A stretch of DNA of 64,000 nt from Actinomycetota bacterium (GTDB lineage: Bacteria; Actinomycetota; Geothermincolia; Fen-727; Anoxymicrobiaceae): assembly GCA_018831265.1 (NCBI GenBank), contig JAHJCO010000023.1, positions 62,001 to 126,000 on the forward strand. The letters are read 5' to 3'. The notes below the pieces were generated by a model. The model made no database searches. It saw only the letters and a list, made by a program, of their open reading frames with translations, and was not told the DNA's origin. The position numbers and the translations under genes are program-made. Positions within the stretch are counted from its first letter, which is position 1, and each line of letters begins with the position of its first letter. This document shows, piece after piece, positions 47,116-57,959 of this stretch.

Positions 47116-47152
47116 AAAGGGTCAGTGATGAATAAGAGAGGCCTGACCCTTT
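47116..47152 (+). terminator. Hairpin right after hisS, built from the REP core
   Basis: AAAGGGTCAG (47116-47125) and CTGACCCTTT (47143-47152) form a perfect ten-base stem directly after the hisS stop codon. It carries the GGGTCAG core of the REP-like family and could serve as a terminator. Confidence 0.6.
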
Positions 47153-47351
47153 GTGGTTTCATTCTTCAGGGACAAGCAGGCAGCACGCGCAGTCGTACGC
47201 CTTGTTCGAATCCATTCCTGCTATAGCCAGCATTGAACCAGCAGCCTGTTCAGATGCTTCGATAGCCTGCCTGCTGCACAGGGTCAGACACATAGTGGAC
47301 ACCCCCTATACTTGCTTTTGAGCAAAAGGCGAGTAATAGGAGGCGCCCAAG
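47153..47351 (+). other. Gap after hisS, mostly unexplained
   Basis: About 200 bases before the transposase relic. GGGTCAGACACA (47281-47292) is another REP-core match. It is directly followed by TAGTGGACACCCCC, which looks like an insertion-sequence end. The rest shows no gene I can support. The TTCGAATCC at 47205 resembles a tRNA T-loop but the arms do not pair. Confidence 0.4.
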
Positions 47352-47520
47352 ATGTCAGGCAGAGTTGGTACTGCCCTCGAGGACCTCTCTCGGGTGCCGA
47401 AGAACGGGAGGTCATCCACCGTCCCCTGGCAGACGGTCGAACTCGTCTGCTCAATCAGAAAGGAACAGCCGGCCTGGAGCAAGCACAAGATCGCCGTCAT
47501 CCGTGAGCGAGACCACGATG
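47352..47520 (+). pseudogene. Transposase relic (IS481-like integrase, helix-turn-helix part)
   Basis: The frame from ATG at 47352 reads ALEDLSRVPKNGRSSTVPWQ, then ELVCSIRKEQPAWSKHKIAV. This is the linker and second helix-turn-helix of IS481-type integrases, where 'LEDLSRRP' is followed by 'lR...P.WG..KIA.LL'. The rest of the protein, with its DDE active site, is missing. The similarity is from memory of the family. The relic marks the left border of the accessory island. Confidence 0.55.
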
Positions 47521-47626
47521 TGAAGCGAACGGTATTCGTGTTAGAATCATTTCGTTTTTACGCGGCGGATTCGTTAATACGAACGACAGTCAGTGCGCAC
47601 TCAGTATCTTATTGGGGGATTCATTA

Positions 47627-50008
47627 ATGATCCGAAACAAGTGCATCCGGGATTTTTACTATTCACGATTTGTGATGACTACGGCATTCGTCTTGACCAT
47701 TCTCCTCATATCGAGCCTGGTTGTTGCGACACAAGGGTTGCTGAGTAACACATCAGCGCAGACTCTGGTCAAGACGATTGAAGTCGGCCAGGGGACGTAT
47801 GGAATCTGCGTCAACCCGTCCCTCAACAAGATCTATGCCGCAAATGAAGCAGGAAGCTCTGTATCCGTGATCAATGGAGCTACTGAAGCCGTTACTAAGA
47901 CGGTGGCGCTCTCATCAGTTGGCTTCGGTATTGCGGCCAATCCCGCTACTAAGAAGGTCTACGTTACCGGCGATGACATCGTTACAGTGTTGAATGGTGT
48001 TTCGGATAACGTGATAACCACAATTGCCGTCGGTAAGAACCCTCGCGGTATCGGAATCAATCCCGTCACGAACAAGATATATGTGGCTAACAGCGGATAT
48101 GGAACTGCCGATAGCAACACGGTGTCGGTCATCGATGGATCAACGGATGCCGTAATTAAAACCGTCACGGTCGGCTATGCCCCGTATGGGGCTGTAGTCA
48201 ATCCAGATACTGACAGGGTCTATGTTTCAAATAGTCAATCGAGCACCGTCTCGGTGTTGAACGGTGCAACAGACAGCGTTATAACGACCTTCAGTGTAGG
48301 GTCGGGTCCCGGTTCGATAGCTTTAGACCCGATCACGAACCGTGTCTATGTCATGATCAGTAGAGGATTGCAGGTACTTGACGGGAGCACAGGGGATGCA
48401 CTCGGAACGATTGTGACGGGCTACGGGTCCGTGTGCGTCAATCCAGAGACGGCCAGGGTCTACATCACCAGCGACAACGAAGAGAGCCCGGGCTCACTTC
48501 TGGTAGCGAACGGCGCCAATGGAGCGGTCACCTCGGAGGTCTCCGTGAACGTCGAGCCGGAGGGTGTCTGCGTCAATCCTGAAACCGGCAAGGTGTACGT
48601 TGCCTGTTTTCGGGGCTGGGGCCAAATGCCCGGGCCTGGGACGGTCTCCGTCATCTATGACCCCCCATTTCCTACCTTCTACTTCGCGGAGGGTACCTGC
48701 AGGCCCGGTTTCGACTCGTTCATCTGCATCCAGAACCCCGGAGATGCCCAGGCGGAGGTCAAGGTCACCTACATATGCAGCGGTCCGGACAAGGAGCAGG
48801 ATGTGGTCGTGCCGGCTCATTCACGTTCTACCGTCCGTCCTTATGAGGTGCTCGGCGTCGGAGACGACGCCGCTCACGACTTCTCGGCTAAGGTTGAGTG
48901 CACGAACGGCCAGCAGATAATTGCTGAGAGGTCCGTCTACTTCGACTACCATGGCTGGACGGGGGGGCACGATGTTGTCGGTGCGACGGGTGCCACCTCG
49001 TCTCACTTCTTCGCGGAGGGAACCACCAGGCCGGGATTCGACCCGTACTTCTGTATTCAGAACCCCTCGGATGACCATGTCGAGGTGAGAATCGAGTATT
49101 TGCTCGGGGATGGTTCGCAACCGCAGGACACTGTTAAGGTGCCTGCCCTGTCCCGGTACACTATACACCCTTCAGATTTCCTGGGGGTGGGGGATGACGC
49201 CGGGCATGATTTCTCGGCTCGGGTAAGGTTCCTGGAAAGGTACCGCCAACTCATCGTGGAACGGCCCATGTACTTCGACTACAAAGGCTGGACTGGTGGG
49301 AGCGACGTGGTGGGGGCTACCTACCCGGCTACCAGGTTCTACTTCGCCGAAGGCACCACGCGGCCGGGCTTCGACTCCTACATTTGCATACAGAACCCGC
49401 CTGAAGATCTCTATTACATTAAACGAGATGCCCAGGTGAGGGTGACCTACATGCTTGGCGATGGACGCACCGCAACCCAGGATATCGTGGTGCTTGATGG
49501 TTCCCGCGCGACTCTCCACCCAGCCGACGTCCTGGGGGTCGGGGACGACGAGGCGCACGACTTCTCGATCAAGGTGGAGAGCACTAATGGGCAATCTATA
49601 GTCGCCGAGCGTCCCATGTACTTCAACTACCAGGGCAAGTGGACCGGGGGGAGCAACGTGGTGGGGACCACGGCGCCGTCATCGACCTTCTACTTCGCCG
49701 AGGGGACCTGCAGGCCCGGCTTCGACACCTACTTCTGCGTACAGAACTCGGGGGACGCCGATGCTGCGGTGCACCTTACCTACATGATGGGTGACGGGAG
49801 CACCCGCGAGCAGGACATCACCGTAAGGGCCAACTCGCGTCAGACCGTGAACTGCCACGACATCCTGGGCTTCGGGGACGGGGCGGCTTACGACTTCTCC
49901 ACGAAGGTCGAGTGTACAAACGGGCAGAACATCGTGGTCGAACGCCCGATGTACTTCGACTACCATGGGTGGACCGGCGGCCACGACGTGGTGGGCTATC
50001 AGAAGTGA
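47627..50008 (+). CDS. Secreted YVTN beta-propeller protein with four FAEGT-RPGFD domains
   Basis: This exported protein of 793 residues starts with a signal peptide (MTTAFVLTILLISSLVVATQ). Residues 48-345 are seven or so propeller blades with the YVTN pattern (GICVNPSLNKIYAANE; NPVTNKIYVANSG; NPDTDRVYVSNSQ). Four tandem domains of about 110 residues follow, starting near residues 350, 459, 569 and 687. Each opens with YFAEGT(C/T)RPGFD, then 'IQNP', 'LGVGDDAAHDFS' and a final 'ERPMYFDY.GWTGG'. No membrane or sortase anchor is seen at the end. I do not know a function; a cell-surface or envelope role is inferred. The ATG at 47627 follows GGGGGA. A paralogue lies at 55223-57739. GC is low in the propeller and higher in the domains. 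Confidence 0.85.
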   Translation: MIRNKCIRDFYYSRFVMTTAFVLTILLISSLVVATQGLLSNTSAQTLVKTIEVGQGTYGICVNPSLNKIYAANEAGSSVSVINGATEAVTKTVALSSVGFGIAANPATKKVYVTGDDIVTVLNGVSDNVITTIAVGKNPRGIGINPVTNKIYVANSGYGTADSNTVSVIDGSTDAVIKTVTVGYAPYGAVVNPDTDRVYVSNSQSSTVSVLNGATDSVITTFSVGSGPGSIALDPITNRVYVMISRGLQVLDGSTGDALGTIVTGYGSVCVNPETARVYITSDNEESPGSLLVANGANGAVTSEVSVNVEPEGVCVNPETGKVYVACFRGWGQMPGPGTVSVIYDPPFPTFYFAEGTCRPGFDSFICIQNPGDAQAEVKVTYICSGPDKEQDVVVPAHSRSTVRPYEVLGVGDDAAHDFSAKVECTNGQQIIAERSVYFDYHGWTGGHDVVGATGATSSHFFAEGTTRPGFDPYFCIQNPSDDHVEVRIEYLLGDGSQPQDTVKVPALSRYTIHPSDFLGVGDDAGHDFSARVRFLERYRQLIVERPMYFDYKGWTGGSDVVGATYPATRFYFAEGTTRPGFDSYICIQNPPEDLYYIKRDAQVRVTYMLGDGRTATQDIVVLDGSRATLHPADVLGVGDDEAHDFSIKVESTNGQSIVAERPMYFNYQGKWTGGSNVVGTTAPSSTFYFAEGTCRPGFDTYFCVQNSGDADAAVHLTYMMGDGSTREQDITVRANSRQTVNCHDILGFGDGAAYDFSTKVECTNGQNIVVERPMYFDYHGWTGGHDVVGYQK

Positions 50009-50203
50009 GTGTGGTAGTCGGTTATTCCTCCAGAATCCCATAGGAGTCTGGAGGACACTGGCAACTGATTGTGGTAATGCTTGTCGTTCATGGGGTCAGC
50101 AGGGGGGATTGGCTTGCTTAGGCACATTAATGGGGAATACTCCTACACCCACAAAGGAGGGTTCGAGCGTTTCCACGTCCAGCCATCGTCAGCTACATCT
50201 GTG

Positions 50204-53200
50204 ATGCCCAGGGTGTTCCTCTTCATCTCTGCTCTGGTCTTGGTTATGATCGCCTTGCTGCTTAACCCAGTATCCGTCCACGCCGCCACGCTGACCGTAA
50301 CCAGCAACGCCGACTCAGGTCCCGGAACCCTCCGGGAAGCCCTGGACATCGCCAACACGAACGGCGAGCCCGACCTGATCACCTTCGCCTCCGACATGAC
50401 AATACAGCCCCTCACCAGCTACGCCTTCACGGAAGACGGCACCACTATAAGCGGCGCCGGACACCTGGTCGACATAGACGGCTCCCTCCTCGCGATGGAC
50501 TCCCCCTGCTTCATGGTCTCATCCAACCAAGACGAGCTTCGTTCACTCTGCATTATTAATGTCCCGGCAGGCAGCATCGAAACGCCCGCGATCGAGCTTC
50601 ACGGGGACGGCAATACCGTGGCGGGTTGTTACATCGGTCTCGACCGCGCCGGTGTCGCAGCGCCGAACCTCATCGGTGTGCGTATGGTAGGTACCACTAA
50701 CGCAACCATCGGAGGGGCCGCCTCCGAGGACAGAAACGTGATTTCCGGGAACGCGTTGGCAGGCATCAAGCTGGACGCTGCCTCCACGAACAATACGGTG
50801 CTGGGCAACTACATTGGAACCGGTTCAGACGGCCTCTCGCAAGTGCCCAACCTTGCAGGCATCTGGTTCTCCTCCGCTACCGGAAACACGATCGGTGGAA
50901 TCGGGGTTGACGACCTCAACGTGATCTCGGGCAACACCAGCTCGAACCTCTGGCTGGACGCCGCCTCAACCGGAAATACGATCTGTGGAAACCTGATCGG
51001 CCCTGATGCCAGCGGTACCTCCACCTTCCCCGATCAGGAATATGGCCTTATAGTTCATGGGCCTGACAATACCATCGGGGGCGCCACCCCGGGTCACAGA
51101 AACGTGATAGCCGGCAACAAGACCAACGTTGGGCTCATCACCGGCTCGAATCGCTCCACGGTTCAAGGAAACTACATCGGGGTGGATTCCACCGGGAACA
51201 CCTCACTACCCTCACCCTCTGAGACCACATACGACGTTATGACCTTCTCACCAGAATGCAGGATTATCTCAAACCATATTGGCGGGCCGGGCACTGGCGG
51301 CATCGGTGTCATGGACGACGCTGCCGATGCCGTTATCCAGGGGAACTCTATCGGGCTGGGCGCCGACGGTCATAGCGATACCGGGATCGCGGTGGGCATC
51401 TGGAGCCACGCGGACAGGACAGTGATCGGCGGCTCCGAATCCGGCCAGGGAAACGTTATCGTGAACGCAAGATACGGTATCGGCTATCAGGTGGGTATAA
51501 TAATCAATCCCGGAGGGGAGGGCCACCTCGCCGTCGGAGCGGCGGTGCGCGGCAACCGTATCGGCATCTCACCCGATGGTGACCCCATGCCCTGTACCTT
51601 CGCTGTTCTCGCCGGGGGAGCGGACGCGATTCTCGGCGGAGACACCGCTGAATGCGGCAATATCGTCGCGTATAACGGCGCGGGCATTCAGGCCGGGGCC
51701 AACAGCATCGTCATCAGATCAAACACCATCCACTCGAACGATGGCGCCGGTGTGCTGGTGGGTGGCGGTACGCGAGTCAACATAAGATCAAACAGTATTT
51801 ATGCCAACGGAGACCTCGGTATAGATATCGTTCCCGATATAGGACCCAATGTACCCCAGGATAATTATCCATACCCGACAGAATATGACCCCAACTTCAA
51901 TATGCATTTCCCCGAGATCTCCCAGGTGATATATGGTGGAGGTGAGTTATCTGTACATGGAACTGCAATCCCTTCCTCGACGGTAGATGTGTACTCATCC
52001 GATGCTGGAGAAGGGACTTATGGTCAAGGTAGAAATCACTTGGGCACTGCAACGACTTCCGACCAGGGAGATTTCTCATTGTCCGTGCAGATTCCAACGT
52101 CGCCCGACTTCGTCACATCAACAGCCACAGATACCCAAGGCAATACCTCTGAGTTCGGCCTTAACACCCGAGTTTCATTCTCACCGCCTCGAATAACATC
52201 CATTAACCCGAAATCCGGCATTGTCGGGCAGACCATATGGATAAACATCCACGGGAATGACACTCACTTCATCGATGGTACAAGTAGAGCAGTCATCTCG
52301 GAATCCGATGGCGTAATAGTTAGACAGACGAAATGGATGAGCGCTACCTGGGTTCAAGCACAGGTTTGCATAAGAGACCATGCAACACCTGGCTTATGGG
52401 ATATCAACGTGCTGACCCCAGGAGAAGCCCAATCCCCACTTCCTCTTGTGAATGGTTTCGAAGTGAAGATGAATCCACCCCCATCAGAACCTGAGATGCC
52501 AAAGAAGTACTATCTTGCCGAAGGAAGTTGCAGACCTGGCTTTGACCCGTATATCTCCATTATGAACCCATCTGATTCCGGTGCGGTTGTCAACATATTG
52601 TATTTGCTAGGTAACGGGAAACGGAAGTCCCAGGATCTGGAGATCGGGGCGCACGTCCGAGCGACAGTCCATCCACCGGATGTCCTGGGGACGGCAGATG
52701 ACAAAGCACATGACTTCTCTTTCATTGTGGAATGCAAGAAAGGTGACGGGCTTGCAGTTAGCCGTACGATATATTTCAACTACCGGGGCAAGGTAGGTTC
52801 AAGCGGCTCTGGTGCAGCAACTGAACCTCTTGAATCCTGGTACTTCGCTGAAGGTACATGCAGGCCGGGATTTGATACCTATCTGTGCATAGCTAATCCA
52901 GGTGGCGCTTCAGCTACTATGAGAATCACCTATATGTTGGGCAACGGAAGCGTTAGAGAGCAGACTGTAACTATCGGGGCGAACGCTCGTGAAACTATAT
53001 ATCCACGAGACGTCATTGGCACCGGGGATGACGCCGGTCACGACTTCTCGACGAAGGTTGAATGCACAAATGGCCAAAGGACTGTAGTCGAGCGACCAAT
53101 ATATTTCACCTTCAACGGCAGCATATCAGGTGGGCATGTGTCTCTAGGTGCCGGTGCACCAGCTCAGACTTGGTATTTACCCGAGGGAACGTCCGTTGGA

Positions 53201-55162
53201 GGCTTTGAAACGTACATCTGCGTGCAGAATCCTGGGAGTTCAGATGCAGATGTCACCTTAACATATTTGAAAGAGGGTGGAGGGGCTACCTCCTCACAAT
53301 CGGTATCAGTGAGTCCTAGCTCTAGGGTGACATTACGCCCTGCGGACGCAATCGGTGCTGACTGTAGCTTTGCTTCCGAAGTGGAATGCACTAGTGGGCA
53401 ACGAATCATTGCCGAGCGTTCGAGTTACTTCACATATCAGGGAATGGATGAGGGCTCCAATTCAATGGGAGCAACATCCCTGCACAATCATTGGTATTTG
53501 CCTGAGGGATGCCAGAGTTCTGCAAATCAGTTCGATACGTACTACCTGATTCAGAATCCGAATCAGGCTGAAATCACGTGCGACTTCAGGTTCATGACGG
53601 GGACCGGCGACGTGTTCGAGAAGACGTATCGAGTTGCTCCTCTGACTAGGAAGACCATCTCTCTAGCCAGCGAAGCTGAATTCCTTAGAAATCTTCAATA
53701 CTACGACGGGATTGCGACTGAGGTAACAAGCTCTTTGCCTGTGGCTGTGGAACAAGCTATGTACTCCAGATACAGAGGAGGAAAGGGAGGAGAGACCTCC
53801 GTCGGTTTGGGGCTTGGAAAACAGGAATCAATCGATATTCTACTTCGAAAGAAACTCGGAATCACCCTGACTGGGAATGGCTACTGGAGCAACGGTCCCG
53901 CATCACGTACTTCTTGTTATTTCCCCGGCCTGTCGGTTTCTTATTTCAAGGATAACCCTGCTACGACTCAGGATGAAGGCCTCAAGTACAAGCAGGCGTG
54001 GTTCCGCAATCCTTTGATTTATGTCCCATATGATCTGTTTCTTCCAGAAAACCTGAAGCAAGGGGTGGCGATATACAAGAAGGTATTCAAGCAGTTGAAG
54101 AGTTATTATCCGGACTCGATCGGTGTTGTATTCATCTTCCGCTGTATTAAACCTCCGCGTGAATGGCCGGGTTGGGGACAAGTGCCGCACGGTTCTTCGA
54201 CTCCGCTTATCTACCCGGATGGAGCAGCGTTACAGGCAACCGGCATTGACGCGGAGAACGGACAATGGGCTACTGCCGTTGCGAATTTCTGCAAGTGTTT
54301 TGGTTCGAATGTCAAGTACTACGAGATCCTTGACGAACCAGGTTTCGACAAACCGTCTGAGTGTGAAGATACTCATCTCAATGGAAGCTGTGTTCAGGAT
54401 TACCCGGTTATATTACGCATAGCGTACGAAAAAATACACGGTTTCGCAAGCGAATGGAACGACTCGCATCCTACATTGAAGCCGCTCGAGCCAGTTGTGG
54501 TATCGGGTTCACTGTTGCTCCGTCCCGACATACGTATACTCAACGATTTCTGGGAAGAGAATGAATTGCAGCCTTCAAGTTACAAGTATTATAGAGAACT
54601 GAAACAAGACCTTGTTAAGTACAGCGATGCGATAGGCGTGCATTTCTTCGGGGCCCCGACAGAATCGACGTGGCCCAACAATCCGTACCTGTTTTCATAT
54701 AACCACTTGAGAAATGATCAAGATCTCTTTGTCGATGTAAAAAAACCGATTCTCGTTACGAGCTTTGGGCTTCCCTGGGCAATCAATGATCCCCTACATA
54801 AGGATTACTTACCTGACAATGAGCATTCAGATCCTCTCCAGTCCTTTCATTGCATAGAACATGGATCGGGCAAGCTTGAATACGGATTGGATTCACTTTT
54901 ATATGAGACGACATGCTCGGCGGCATGGTACTGGAACGATGTGGCTGTAGGTTTCAAGGATGGCATCTGGTCGGGCAGTTCTTTCTATGGCTTGGGTATG
55001 ACATACAGTGACTCTGTAAAAGTCAACACTAATCCACTGACTTCAAAACCTGAAGACTGGACGGTTACAGATACGATGAAGGACCAGAGTGGTAATCCTG
55101 TAACTTACCAGCCACCTAGTATGTGGGGCCATTATATTCGTTGGATAAACGCAACAGAGTAG
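50204..55162 (+). CDS. Giant secreted beta-helix / FAEGT-RPGFD / hydrolase-like protein
   Basis: This protein of about 1,650 residues has a signal peptide (FLFISALVLVMIALLLNPVSVHA). A CSLREA-type start (TVTSNADSGPGTLREALDIA) leads into a right-handed beta-helix to about residue 580, with many 'NTIGG...NVISGN' turns. An IPT/TIG-like domain (PRITSINPKSGIVGQTIWI) follows at about 661-740. Four FAEGT-RPGFD domains start near 768, 878, 989 and 1096, the last two degenerate. A barrel-like glycoside-hydrolase domain occupies residues 1216-1652, with YYEILDEPGF and KPILVTSFGLPW. The nucleophile Glu of such enzymes is Ser here. The start is unsure: an AAAGGAGG at 50153 has no start codon at the right distance. 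Function unknown. Confidence 0.8.
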   Translation: MPRVFLFISALVLVMIALLLNPVSVHAATLTVTSNADSGPGTLREALDIANTNGEPDLITFASDMTIQPLTSYAFTEDGTTISGAGHLVDIDGSLLAMDSPCFMVSSNQDELRSLCIINVPAGSIETPAIELHGDGNTVAGCYIGLDRAGVAAPNLIGVRMVGTTNATIGGAASEDRNVISGNALAGIKLDAASTNNTVLGNYIGTGSDGLSQVPNLAGIWFSSATGNTIGGIGVDDLNVISGNTSSNLWLDAASTGNTICGNLIGPDASGTSTFPDQEYGLIVHGPDNTIGGATPGHRNVIAGNKTNVGLITGSNRSTVQGNYIGVDSTGNTSLPSPSETTYDVMTFSPECRIISNHIGGPGTGGIGVMDDAADAVIQGNSIGLGADGHSDTGIAVGIWSHADRTVIGGSESGQGNVIVNARYGIGYQVGIIINPGGEGHLAVGAAVRGNRIGISPDGDPMPCTFAVLAGGADAILGGDTAECGNIVAYNGAGIQAGANSIVIRSNTIHSNDGAGVLVGGGTRVNIRSNSIYANGDLGIDIVPDIGPNVPQDNYPYPTEYDPNFNMHFPEISQVIYGGGELSVHGTAIPSSTVDVYSSDAGEGTYGQGRNHLGTATTSDQGDFSLSVQIPTSPDFVTSTATDTQGNTSEFGLNTRVSFSPPRITSINPKSGIVGQTIWINIHGNDTHFIDGTSRAVISESDGVIVRQTKWMSATWVQAQVCIRDHATPGLWDINVLTPGEAQSPLPLVNGFEVKMNPPPSEPEMPKKYYLAEGSCRPGFDPYISIMNPSDSGAVVNILYLLGNGKRKSQDLEIGAHVRATVHPPDVLGTADDKAHDFSFIVECKKGDGLAVSRTIYFNYRGKVGSSGSGAATEPLESWYFAEGTCRPGFDTYLCIANPGGASATMRITYMLGNGSVREQTVTIGANARETIYPRDVIGTGDDAGHDFSTKVECTNGQRTVVERPIYFTFNGSISGGHVSLGAGAPAQTWYLPEGTSVGGFETYICVQNPGSSDADVTLTYLKEGGGATSSQSVSVSPSSRVTLRPADAIGADCSFASEVECTSGQRIIAERSSYFTYQGMDEGSNSMGATSLHNHWYLPEGCQSSANQFDTYYLIQNPNQAEITCDFRFMTGTGDVFEKTYRVAPLTRKTISLASEAEFLRNLQYYDGIATEVTSSLPVAVEQAMYSRYRGGKGGETSVGLGLGKQESIDILLRKKLGITLTGNGYWSNGPASRTSCYFPGLSVSYFKDNPATTQDEGLKYKQAWFRNPLIYVPYDLFLPENLKQGVAIYKKVFKQLKSYYPDSIGVVFIFRCIKPPREWPGWGQVPHGSSTPLIYPDGAALQATGIDAENGQWATAVANFCKCFGSNVKYYEILDEPGFDKPSECEDTHLNGSCVQDYPVILRIAYEKIHGFASEWNDSHPTLKPLEPVVVSGSLLLRPDIRILNDFWEENELQPSSYKYYRELKQDLVKYSDAIGVHFFGAPTESTWPNNPYLFSYNHLRNDQDLFVDVKKPILVTSFGLPWAINDPLHKDYLPDNEHSDPLQSFHCIEHGSGKLEYGLDSLLYETTCSAAWYWNDVAVGFKDGIWSGSSFYGLGMTYSDSVKVNTNPLTSKPEDWTVTDTMKDQSGNPVTYQPPSMWGHYIRWINATE

Positions 55163-55222
55163 GATGCCTGCAAGAGAAACGAGTGGGAATGATCAACGAC
55201 GACTGGTATTGGTTGAGGTCAA

Positions 55223-57739
55223 ATGAGTGATCCGACGCTTCGGTCTGGTATGTCTGTACGCCGAGTATTAATGATAGCCATCATACTTGTCCCACTCGTC
55301 TTGATAAACGCTGTGTCAGCCGCCTTCTCTGTACCGCTTGTCTCCACAATCGCTGTTGGAAGTGAGCCTCTTGGTACTTGCTTGAATCCAAACACAAATA
55401 GACTCTATGTCGCGAATTATGGAAGCAACAGTGTTTCAATAGTTGATTGCGCTACTAACGCTGTACTCAAGACCCTCGGAAACGTCGGCAATAAATATAA
55501 ATTCTCGAATCCCTGTGCAGTCGCCGTTAATCCAACCACTGGCCTAATATTTGTAGTCAACAATACGAGCTATAGTGTTACAGTAGTAAATGGAGCGACT
55601 GATACTACCATAAAGAAGATCCCACTATATAAAGACTTCCCGTGTCCATGGGCGATATGCGTGAATCCAGTGACTAATCGGATATATGTCGCTAACTCAG
55701 GCACATTCAGTTCACCTGGAGATAAGATCTCGATAATCGATGGAAATAGTCTGAAGGTGGTAAGGACCCGCACGGTAGGACTCTGGCCTACATCAATAGG
55801 CGTAGATACGGAGACCAATAGAGTGTTCGTTGCTAATACTGCTAGTAATACTGTATCGGTCCTAGATGATACTCATCCGGACAATCCAGTTATGACACAT
55901 GAGCTTGATGGTTTCATTGCTCCGAACGGAATCGCAGTTAGTCCGTCAAGGAACATGGTATACGTGGCCAATCAGGCACAGAATGAGGGTGGACTTCGCA
56001 GGGGCGTAGTGAGCGTAATCTGTGAGGAATATCATGAGGATACACATACTTGGACATTCGCTACGGTAAAGACATTTGGTGTTGGAAGGGGCTATCGAGC
56101 TGCATACCCAGATGATATCCCCGATGCCATCGCGCTGAAGAACGTGAATCAAGGATTGGATAGGGTTTATGTGTCCAACTCTGGAAGCAACACCGTGTCG
56201 ATTGCAGAAGTCAGTGGAATTGTCGGGACAGTGAAGTACAGGGTCTATGGAACATCTGGATCGGTTTGCCTAAGTGGTGCAACGAATCGTGGCTACGTAG
56301 CAGATTCTAATACCAACGCAGTATCGGTCTTCTTTGATGGGCCCTCAAACACTGCGAAGTTCTATTTTGCAGAGGGGACGTGCCGACCAGGATTCGATCC
56401 ATACATCTCCATACAGAACCTCGGAACCGGGACTGCGATTGTGACCCTGTCTTACATCAAGGGAGATGGCTCACACACGGGTCATACAATACAAGTAAGC
56501 CCCAGTTCCAGAGCCACTGTTGTTGTAAAGGATATCCTTGGCGAAGGTGATGATCCTGCTCACGACTTCGCAACAAGGGTCGAATGCAGCAATGGCCAGA
56601 AGATAATCGCAGAAAGGCCTATGTATTTCAACTACAAGGGACAGTGGACAGGAGGGACGGATGTCGTTGGCACAACTTGCCCAACAACACGATGCTACTT
56701 CGCTGAGGGAACAACCAGGCCTGGATTTGAAACATATCTCTGTATCCTGAACATGAATAGCTCAACGGCAACGATGCTGATCACATTCATGAAGGGTGAC
56801 TCTGCTATCAAGCAACATACGGTGGATGTTGGAGCCTGTTCCCGAGCCACAGTTACATGTAGCGACATCCTCGGAATTGGTGACGACGAGTCACATGATT
56901 TCTCAGTCAAGGTGGAAAGTACAAACGGACTAGCCACAGTCGTGGAGCGACCCATGTATTTCGACTATCGAGGTTTGAAGGGAGGGACTAATGTTATTGG
57001 GTCACCTATCCTGTCGACATCGTTCTACTTTGCGGAGGGTACTTGCAGGCCAGGATTCGACACGTATTTCTGTATTCAGAATCCAGGGGACACAAGTGCC
57101 CAAGTGGCTCTGACTTTCACAAGAGGAAGGGGAGACTCGGTGACCCTTAGTGGAGAATCCAAAACTCTTTGTATTGATGTTGGAGCGGGATCTCGAGCGA
57201 CAGTATTCCCAGAACATGTTCTCGGTTCAGCTGATAGCAACGAGTATGATTTCTTTACGCAAGTCAAGTCTGCCAATGGGGCGCTAATACTCGCTGAGCG
57301 TCCAATGTACTTCAACTACAAAGGCTGGACAGGCGGTACCGATGTCGTAGGGTCACCTCATGCCAGTGCTTGGGAATACTGCTTCGCCGAAGGCACATGT
57401 CGACCGTACTTTGATTCGTATTTATGCATCATGAATCCCGAAGGCCCCGCAGTCAATGCTGCTAGTTCTGTTGCTCACCTGAAGATCACTCTTCAACAAG
57501 GCGATGGCAAGTCCAAGGAATACAAGTGTGACATCAATGCGAACACGCGATTTACAGTCAACTGTCGAGATATACTAGAACTACCGGAAGGTGACGACAA
57601 CTCTCATGACTTCTCAATACGGGTTTCAATCGTTAAAAATAAAGTGCAGCAAGCGTACGTGGTCGAGAGGCCCATGTATTTCAACTACGGGGGGAAGTGG
57701 ACGGGAGGTACTGACGTAATAGGATATCCGAAGGACTGA
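55223..57739 (+). CDS. Secreted YVTN beta-propeller protein with four FAEGT-RPGFD domains (paralogue)
   Basis: This 838-residue protein has the same plan as the one at 47627. A signal peptide (VLMIAIILVPLVLINAVSAA) leads to a propeller over residues 36-375 (GTCLNPNTNRLYVANYGSNSV; NPVTNRIYVANSG). Four FAEGT-RPGFD domains start near residues 379, 490, 599 and 718. It ends at the same motif (MYFNYGGKWTGGTDVIGYP), so the two are paralogues with a recent common plan but low DNA identity. GC content is low along the whole gene. The ATG at 55223 has GAGGT just before it. It probably shares a transcript with the gene upstream (60-base gap). Confidence 0.85.
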   Translation: MSDPTLRSGMSVRRVLMIAIILVPLVLINAVSAAFSVPLVSTIAVGSEPLGTCLNPNTNRLYVANYGSNSVSIVDCATNAVLKTLGNVGNKYKFSNPCAVAVNPTTGLIFVVNNTSYSVTVVNGATDTTIKKIPLYKDFPCPWAICVNPVTNRIYVANSGTFSSPGDKISIIDGNSLKVVRTRTVGLWPTSIGVDTETNRVFVANTASNTVSVLDDTHPDNPVMTHELDGFIAPNGIAVSPSRNMVYVANQAQNEGGLRRGVVSVICEEYHEDTHTWTFATVKTFGVGRGYRAAYPDDIPDAIALKNVNQGLDRVYVSNSGSNTVSIAEVSGIVGTVKYRVYGTSGSVCLSGATNRGYVADSNTNAVSVFFDGPSNTAKFYFAEGTCRPGFDPYISIQNLGTGTAIVTLSYIKGDGSHTGHTIQVSPSSRATVVVKDILGEGDDPAHDFATRVECSNGQKIIAERPMYFNYKGQWTGGTDVVGTTCPTTRCYFAEGTTRPGFETYLCILNMNSSTATMLITFMKGDSAIKQHTVDVGACSRATVTCSDILGIGDDESHDFSVKVESTNGLATVVERPMYFDYRGLKGGTNVIGSPILSTSFYFAEGTCRPGFDTYFCIQNPGDTSAQVALTFTRGRGDSVTLSGESKTLCIDVGAGSRATVFPEHVLGSADSNEYDFFTQVKSANGALILAERPMYFNYKGWTGGTDVVGSPHASAWEYCFAEGTCRPYFDSYLCIMNPEGPAVNAASSVAHLKITLQQGDGKSKEYKCDINANTRFTVNCRDILELPEGDDNSHDFSIRVSIVKNKVQQAYVVERPMYFNYGGKWTGGTDVIGYPKD

Positions 57740-57856
57740 ATAATGCAGTGATTCCGAGTCAGAAGCGCAGCTTCTAGCTGAGCTGTTTGTTGACTACAAA
57801 TGAAGAGGCACCAGACTCGTGATGGATTTAACCAGATAGTGATGGTCAGTATTATC

Positions 57857-57893
57857 GGGGACAGGCGCCGGGCTTCTTGGTCCGGTCCCTGTC
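57857..57893 (+). terminator. Hairpin after the island
   Basis: GGGACAGG and CCCTGTC, with an inner CCGG/CCGG pair, form a strong stem around GCTTCTTGGT, followed by TTATGTG. It probably ends the transcript of the secreted-protein genes before aspS. A T-box motif was looked for in this leader and not found. Confidence 0.55.
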
Positions 57894-57959
57894 TTATGTG
57901 TCGGGAAATCTGGTTGCAGAAAGGTCAGATCCTCCGGAGACCGGGAAAGACGGTTGATA

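Follow-up and report, generated by a model that had tools for sequence, protein, structure and literature searches.

Secreted four-unit arrays of ASRT/ASRAH-type beta-sandwiches in Candidatus Geothermincolia and their probable closure into single-chain rings

The window analysed here is a stretch of 64,000 nucleotides from an Actinomycetota bacterium (assembly GCA_018831265.1, contig JAHJCO010000023.1, positions 62,001 to 126,000). Three neighbouring genes in it, referred to as A, B and C, encode secreted proteins that each carry four copies of a unit of about 104-118 residues (Table 1). The unit was assigned to the ASRT/ASRAH beta-sandwich superfamily by sequence and modelled fold, and the four units of one chain very probably close into a ring.

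Results

Three secreted proteins with twelve related units

The twelve units of the window were aligned. Their pairwise identity was 35-67%, except for unit B4 (24-32%) and the pair B3-C4 (27%), and the residues E, G, F, N, R, T, Y and G occupied invariant columns. The propellers of genes A and C are related (37-38% identity). Sec-type signal peptides were recognised in all three proteins (3/3), and neither an LPXTG motif nor a C-terminal membrane segment was found in them. An earlier note on this DNA had described twelve units, four in each of three genes, on proteins with signal peptides and no visible anchor; the unit coordinates and the alignment confirmed the count, and the description of secretion and anchoring also stood. 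The same note had placed the arrays after N-terminal modules (propeller, beta-helix plus IPT, propeller). These modules were recovered, but the array of gene B is not terminal, as about 448 residues (residues ~1247-1693) follow it as a glycosidase-like domain. Searches of Pfam and the PDB gave no match for this domain.

Table 1. Coordinates of the features described, numbered from the first nucleotide of the window
Feature	Position	Strand	Remarks
Island between hisS and aspS	47116..57953	.	10.8 kb, low GC; absent from 12 relatives
Gene A	47627..50008	+	793 residues; signal peptide, NHL/YVTN-type beta-propeller, C-terminal four-unit array
Gene A, Sec-type signal peptide	47627..47758	+	approximate; read from the sequence (hydrophobic stretch, AxA-like site)
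Gene A, array	48674-49996
Gene A, unit 1	48674..49000	+
Gene A, unit 2	49001..49333	+
Gene A, unit 3	49334..49684	+
Gene A, unit 4	49685..49996	+
Gene B	50081..55162	+	beta-helix, immunoglobulin (Ig)/IPT-like region, four-unit array, glycosidase-like C-terminal domain
Gene B, likely start	50204		ATG
Gene B, array	52505-53812
Gene B, unit 1	52505..52834	+
Gene B, unit 2	52835..53167	+
Gene B, unit 3	53168..53488	+
Gene B, unit 4	53489..53812	+	divergent
Gene B, C-terminal domain	53816..55162	+	homologue of the glycosidase-like domain of L045 14475-17543
Gene C	55223..57739	+	838 residues; signal peptide, NHL-type beta-propeller, C-terminal four-unit array
Gene C, array	56357-57724
Gene C, unit 1	56357..56689	+
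Gene C, unit 2	56690..57019	+
Gene C, unit 3	57020..57373	+
Gene C, unit 4	57374..57724	+

Assignment of the unit to the ASRT/ASRAH superfamily

Profile searches against the PDB matched TM1070 (1NC7; E value 1.7e-5) and ASRT chains (about 9e-5). In Pfam, relatives of the array matched ASRT (PF07100) with E values of 4e-8 and 3.7e-9, and matches to DUF5719 reached 9e-21. With the curated DUF5719 (PF18986) cut-off of 26.2 bits, genes B (31.1 bits) and C (33.5 bits) were above it and gene A was not reported. The array of gene A was modelled with AlphaFold together with 58 relatives, at a predicted local distance difference test score (pLDDT) of 96.7 and a predicted template modelling score (pTM) of 0.94. 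Single units of this model were compared with known structures by Foldseek and matched 1NC7 with a template modelling score (TM) of 0.81 and ASRT chains with up to 0.81, at a probability of 1.00. The unit is thus an eight-stranded beta-sandwich of the TM1070/ASRT type in the model. Over 300 units, position 2, which opens strand 1 and is Trp in the superfamily, is W, F or Y in 95%, and position 21, after strand 2, is N in nearly 100%.

Size of the family and constancy of four units

Units were counted in 1.1 Mb of stretches around matches in the window genome (3.87 Mb, 60 contigs), so that all counts for this genome are lower bounds. At least 466 units were found in 129 open reading frames (ORFs), and at least 102 intact ORFs had three or more units, with a stop-to-stop span of 326 kb or about 8% of the genome. 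The reversed-sequence control of the unit search gave 3 matches. Every one of the 31 genomes of the class, Candidatus (Ca.) Geothermincolia, had at least 32 matches, with up to 535 candidates, and the named genera matched include Ca. Solincola and Ca. Geothermincola. The other Actinomycetota classes sampled had 0-2 matches per genome.

Four unit matches were present in 96 of the 102 intact ORFs of the window genome. Three ORFs had five matches, two of them being composed of three whole and two half-units and the third of four units, one of which is split by a CHAP domain; one ORF had two sets of four, and two had three units. Altogether, 100/102 carried four units or twice four. In other genomes, four units were found in 69/79 intact ORFs, and over all fetched loci (designated by L numbers) in 217 of the 235 intact ORFs with three or more. 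The nearest neighbour of a unit was the same-numbered unit of another protein in 208 of 300 cases and a unit of its own chain in 45. Since units resemble their same-numbered counterparts elsewhere over their neighbours in the chain, the block of four appears to be inherited as a whole.

Contigs C5, C15, C41 and C49 of genome G000 end inside such arrays; these repeats are therefore a probable cause of breaks in the assembly, which would make the real number of arrays higher. Typical arrays were also seen in records labelled Acidimicrobium (L096, DYIU01), Bacteroidales (L149, JAGVPB01) and Ignavibacteriae (L142, PMMO01), which are likely mislabelled or misbinned. A contig called viral in IMG/VR (L170) has a four-unit array with 26% identity and may be a bacterial fragment.

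Permuted and inserted arrays

About 22 of the intact ORFs of the window genome are circular permutants, with ends at three different loops. In layout 1, unit 1 lacks its first strand (FAEG) and this strand is found after unit 4; it was present there in 7/7 such ORFs of the genome and in 0/92 of the others. Layout 1 was scored with a regular expression, and L045 3143-7012 (tail WHFAEG) was added by eye. The FAEG strand also followed unit 4 in 21/21 layout 1 proteins from 12 other genomes. In layout 2, unit 4 lacks its last strand (GGHxxxG), which precedes unit 1; 14 cases were clear, and several weaker ones were assigned by eye. In layout 3, half-units stand at both ends (L038, L051, L107, L169 and two in L115); in L045 14475-17543, L030 8520-11573 and L046 10882-13950 the front half was recognised by eye. 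What a permutant lacks at one end, be it a strand or a half-unit, it carries at the opposite end, and the total is constant at 4.0 units. The half-unit permutant L169 was modelled with AlphaFold (pTM 0.89); both half-units had pLDDT values of about 90-98, and low values were confined to the ends outside the array.

A cluster of three array proteins (L036 4205-10869; also L172, L174, L178 and L179) encodes an Amidase_3 protein, an NlpC/P60 protein with SLH domains and a SpoIID protein. The cluster is conserved across the class and always has layout 1, distant genomes included, which argues that this permutation is old and is no assembly error.

Arrays were also found inserted in other domains. 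Two separate stretches of L045 14475-17543, residues 235-343 and 830-963, match the C-terminal domain of gene B, and an array lies between the two stretches; the glycosidase-like domain thus occurs both next to an array, as in gene B, and around one. This is expected if the ends of a ring lie close together. The converse was seen in L079 6019-9885, where unit 4 is interrupted by a CHAP domain at the same loop at which the half-unit permutants are cut.

At L045, L030 and L046, paralogous clusters were seen in which a beta-helix protein with an array is followed by a glycosidase-like protein with an array inside. In gene B, the beta-helix protein and the glycosidase-like protein appear to have been fused, with one array.

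Proteins that carry the arrays

A Sec-like N-terminus was present in 99 of the 102 ORFs, and no LPXTG motif was found in the array proteins of the window genome. Nearly all of these proteins are secreted, and no further anchor is visible in them. The modules fused to the arrays comprise Amidase_3, NlpC/P60, SpoIID, YkuD, PGA_cap and polysaccharide deacetylase domains, and many others, among them propellers, beta-helices and glycosidase-like domains. In a conserved protein at L021 6150-10913 (also L091, L093, L102, L117 and L122), an N-terminal array is followed by about 1000 residues (TGMRKFVDSLPGLG...) that were judged multicopper-oxidase-like by eye. CW_binding_2 was not found in the genomes of the class that were searched. 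SLH matches, where found, were limited to a single protein of about 800 residues per genome, and sortase was present in 20/29 genomes and absent from 9/29.

The island between hisS and aspS

In 12/12 relatives with both genes on one contig, hisS and aspS are direct neighbours with 22-178 bp between them; in the window genome they are 10,838 bp apart. The guanine-plus-cytosine (GC) content falls in the island from about 66% to 46-58%, and none of the 102 array genes of the genome is lower in GC than genes C and B. Because of the adjacency of hisS and aspS in relatives and the drop in GC content, genes A, B and C look like a recent insertion, and would have arrived together as one island. The island of three genes described in the earlier note is thus real, but the three genes are not special as carriers of arrays. 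A short ORF just upstream of gene A (47352-47537), resembling the start of a transposase, matched HTH_32 weakly (E value 0.005). This was the only trace found in the search for a mobile element carrying the island, and no second copy of the ORF was present in the assembly.

Discussion

In the model that is proposed here, four ASRT/ASRAH-type beta-sandwiches would pack within one chain into a ring that is closed and has pseudo-four-fold symmetry, as if the four chains of the ASRT homotetramer had been joined covalently. The number would be fixed at four because only four units close the ring, and in a closed ring the chain ends would be free to sit at several loops, giving rise to permutants and to insertion inside other domains. 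Closure is considered very probable from the relocated strands and half-units, the insertions, the constant number of four and the predicted structures of the arrays, taken together. The ring may further be a rigid, multivalent module with four sites for glycan or wall binding, and would keep at the cell surface those secreted enzymes, propellers and beta-helices that have no other anchor. In view of the mostly secreted and unanchored carriers, the peptidoglycan enzymes among them, the absence of CW_binding_2 and the limitation of SLH to one protein per genome, binding to the wall or to a surface glycan was given about an even chance. The joint reading, an ASRT-like ring closed within each chain and serving retention by glycan or wall binding, is regarded as reasonably probable.

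Several observations weigh against this reading. Only three units were detected in 7 of the 235 intact ORFs; the three-unit protein of L081 (5574-8099), for example, is either a true exception or the product of a repeat collapsed in assembly. The pocket signature of ASRT (SHExxCxxN) is not kept, the His position being mostly E or D and the Cys position L in 53% and C in 20% of units (the units of the window often retain the Cys), and sugar binding can therefore not be transferred from ASRT. Covariation between units 4 and 1 (197 arrays, effective number about 185) was not distinguishable from background; since neither mutual information nor mean-field coupling told adjacent units from diagonal ones, known neighbours included, this carries no weight either way. 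Finally, the single SLH protein was itself an array protein in the 12 genomes examined. As this protein has an anchor of its own, the arrays are not simply substitutes for anchors.

The arrays might instead be strings of four Ig-like repeats, each independent of the others, with four as an inherited number devoid of structural meaning. The units are indeed adjacent, with short and constant linkers (two residues in 293 of 311 gaps between profile matches), but it is exactly the missing strand or half-unit that relocates to the other end, whole arrays are inserted in other domains, and the model of the entire array (pTM 0.94) and that of the split half-units of L169 are both confident. This explanation was rejected as the main one in view of the strands and half-units that, missing at one end, turn up at the other, and is held to be quite improbable. 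The view of the earlier note, a tandem string of domains, is accordingly probably wrong, and a single closed domain of four parts agrees better with the evidence. Still less credence is given to a C-terminal sorting or secretion signal read by an export machine, as with type 9 C-terminal domains. Such a signal would fit the 76 of 102 ORFs in which the array ends within 5 residues of the C-terminus; it is weakened by the 15 ORFs, gene B among them, in which more than 100 residues follow, and by arrays that directly follow the signal peptide or interrupt another domain.

A further explanation retains the closed ring and differs in the ligand, the ring being a lectin or carbohydrate-binding module for external polysaccharides or other ligands from the environment. 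It draws on the many propellers, beta-helices and glycosidase-like domains among the fused modules and on the sugar binding predicted for ASRAH domains (De Souza, Iyer and Aravind, 2009; PMC2739507). The cell's own wall is the better-fitting target in view of the wall-enzyme cluster, which is conserved with its permuted arrays even in remotely related genomes of the class, and an external ligand is thought unlikely, though it deserves more weight than the two explanations above.

The earlier note could name no described system of this kind, which did not hold: the profile searches it had proposed gave DUF5719, PF07100 and 1NC7, the structure prediction gave a confidently folded, ASRT-like array, and secreted tetrads of ASRAH domains are known. 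The ASRAH superfamily was defined, and the ASRT tetramer noted, by De Souza, Iyer and Aravind (2009; PMC2739507), who also described secreted dyads and amidase-linked tetrads and suggested tetrameric structures for these too. In a literature search, this was the only paper on ASRAH among the relevant matches, and none was found on DUF5719.

The arrays share with ASRT/TM1070 (2II7, 1NC7, PF07100) the beta-sandwich, the aromatic residue of strand 1, the Asn after strand 2 and, probably, the assembly of four units. ASRT, however, is intracellular, with one unit per chain in a homotetramer and a His/Cys pocket, whereas the arrays of Ca. Geothermincolia have four units in one secreted chain and occur as permutants. 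The amidase-fused tetrads (PMC2739507) are likewise secreted with four units per chain, and the amidase version is present in the window genome as the paralogue L036 4205-6187, while genes A-C have no amidase. Compared with these tetrads, the arrays described here are found on at least 100 proteins with many other modules, and closure and permutation were not described in PMC2739507. With the actinobacterial ASRAH dyad lipoproteins (DUF5719) the arrays share the sequence family of the unit, as seen from the scores of genes B and C, and we infer that PF18986 models the dyad family. The dyad lipoproteins differ in having two units, a lipobox and characteristic flanks; a lipobox-like site was present in 4 of the 102 ORFs of the window genome.

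Wall-binding modules in a fixed number of repeats, such as three SLH or three CW_binding_2 domains, are attached to varied secreted modules. The arrays resemble them in the fixed number and the varied partners and have no sequence relation to them. The earlier note had proposed that the set of four stays constant while the rest varies, and that the array is the shared working part. The former was borne out, also in other genomes, where arrays of four recur with varied partners, and the latter is supported. Its suggestion that the arrays may serve surface attachment or bind a shared ligand is plausible.

The following appear to be new: the evidence, from permutations and insertions, that the tetrad is one closed ring; the presence of the tetrad on about a hundred different secreted proteins of one genome; and, within the phylum as far as it was sampled, its confinement to a single class. 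A broader proposition is put forward tentatively and is considered somewhat doubtful: that the closed ASRT-type ring is a natural single-chain tetramer with at least four positions for the chain ends and would, throughout the class, be the general means of keeping up to about a hundred secreted proteins of each genome at the surface, where SLH, CW_binding_2 or sortase anchors are usual.

Closure of the ring would explain the puzzling constant of four repeats. Natural circular permutants and domain insertions of a ring derived from an oligomer would be useful examples of how closed repeat proteins evolve from homo-oligomers, and DUF5719 would gain a possible role. For an uncultured class with barely known surface biology, the model offers a hypothesis on the function of about 8% of a genome.
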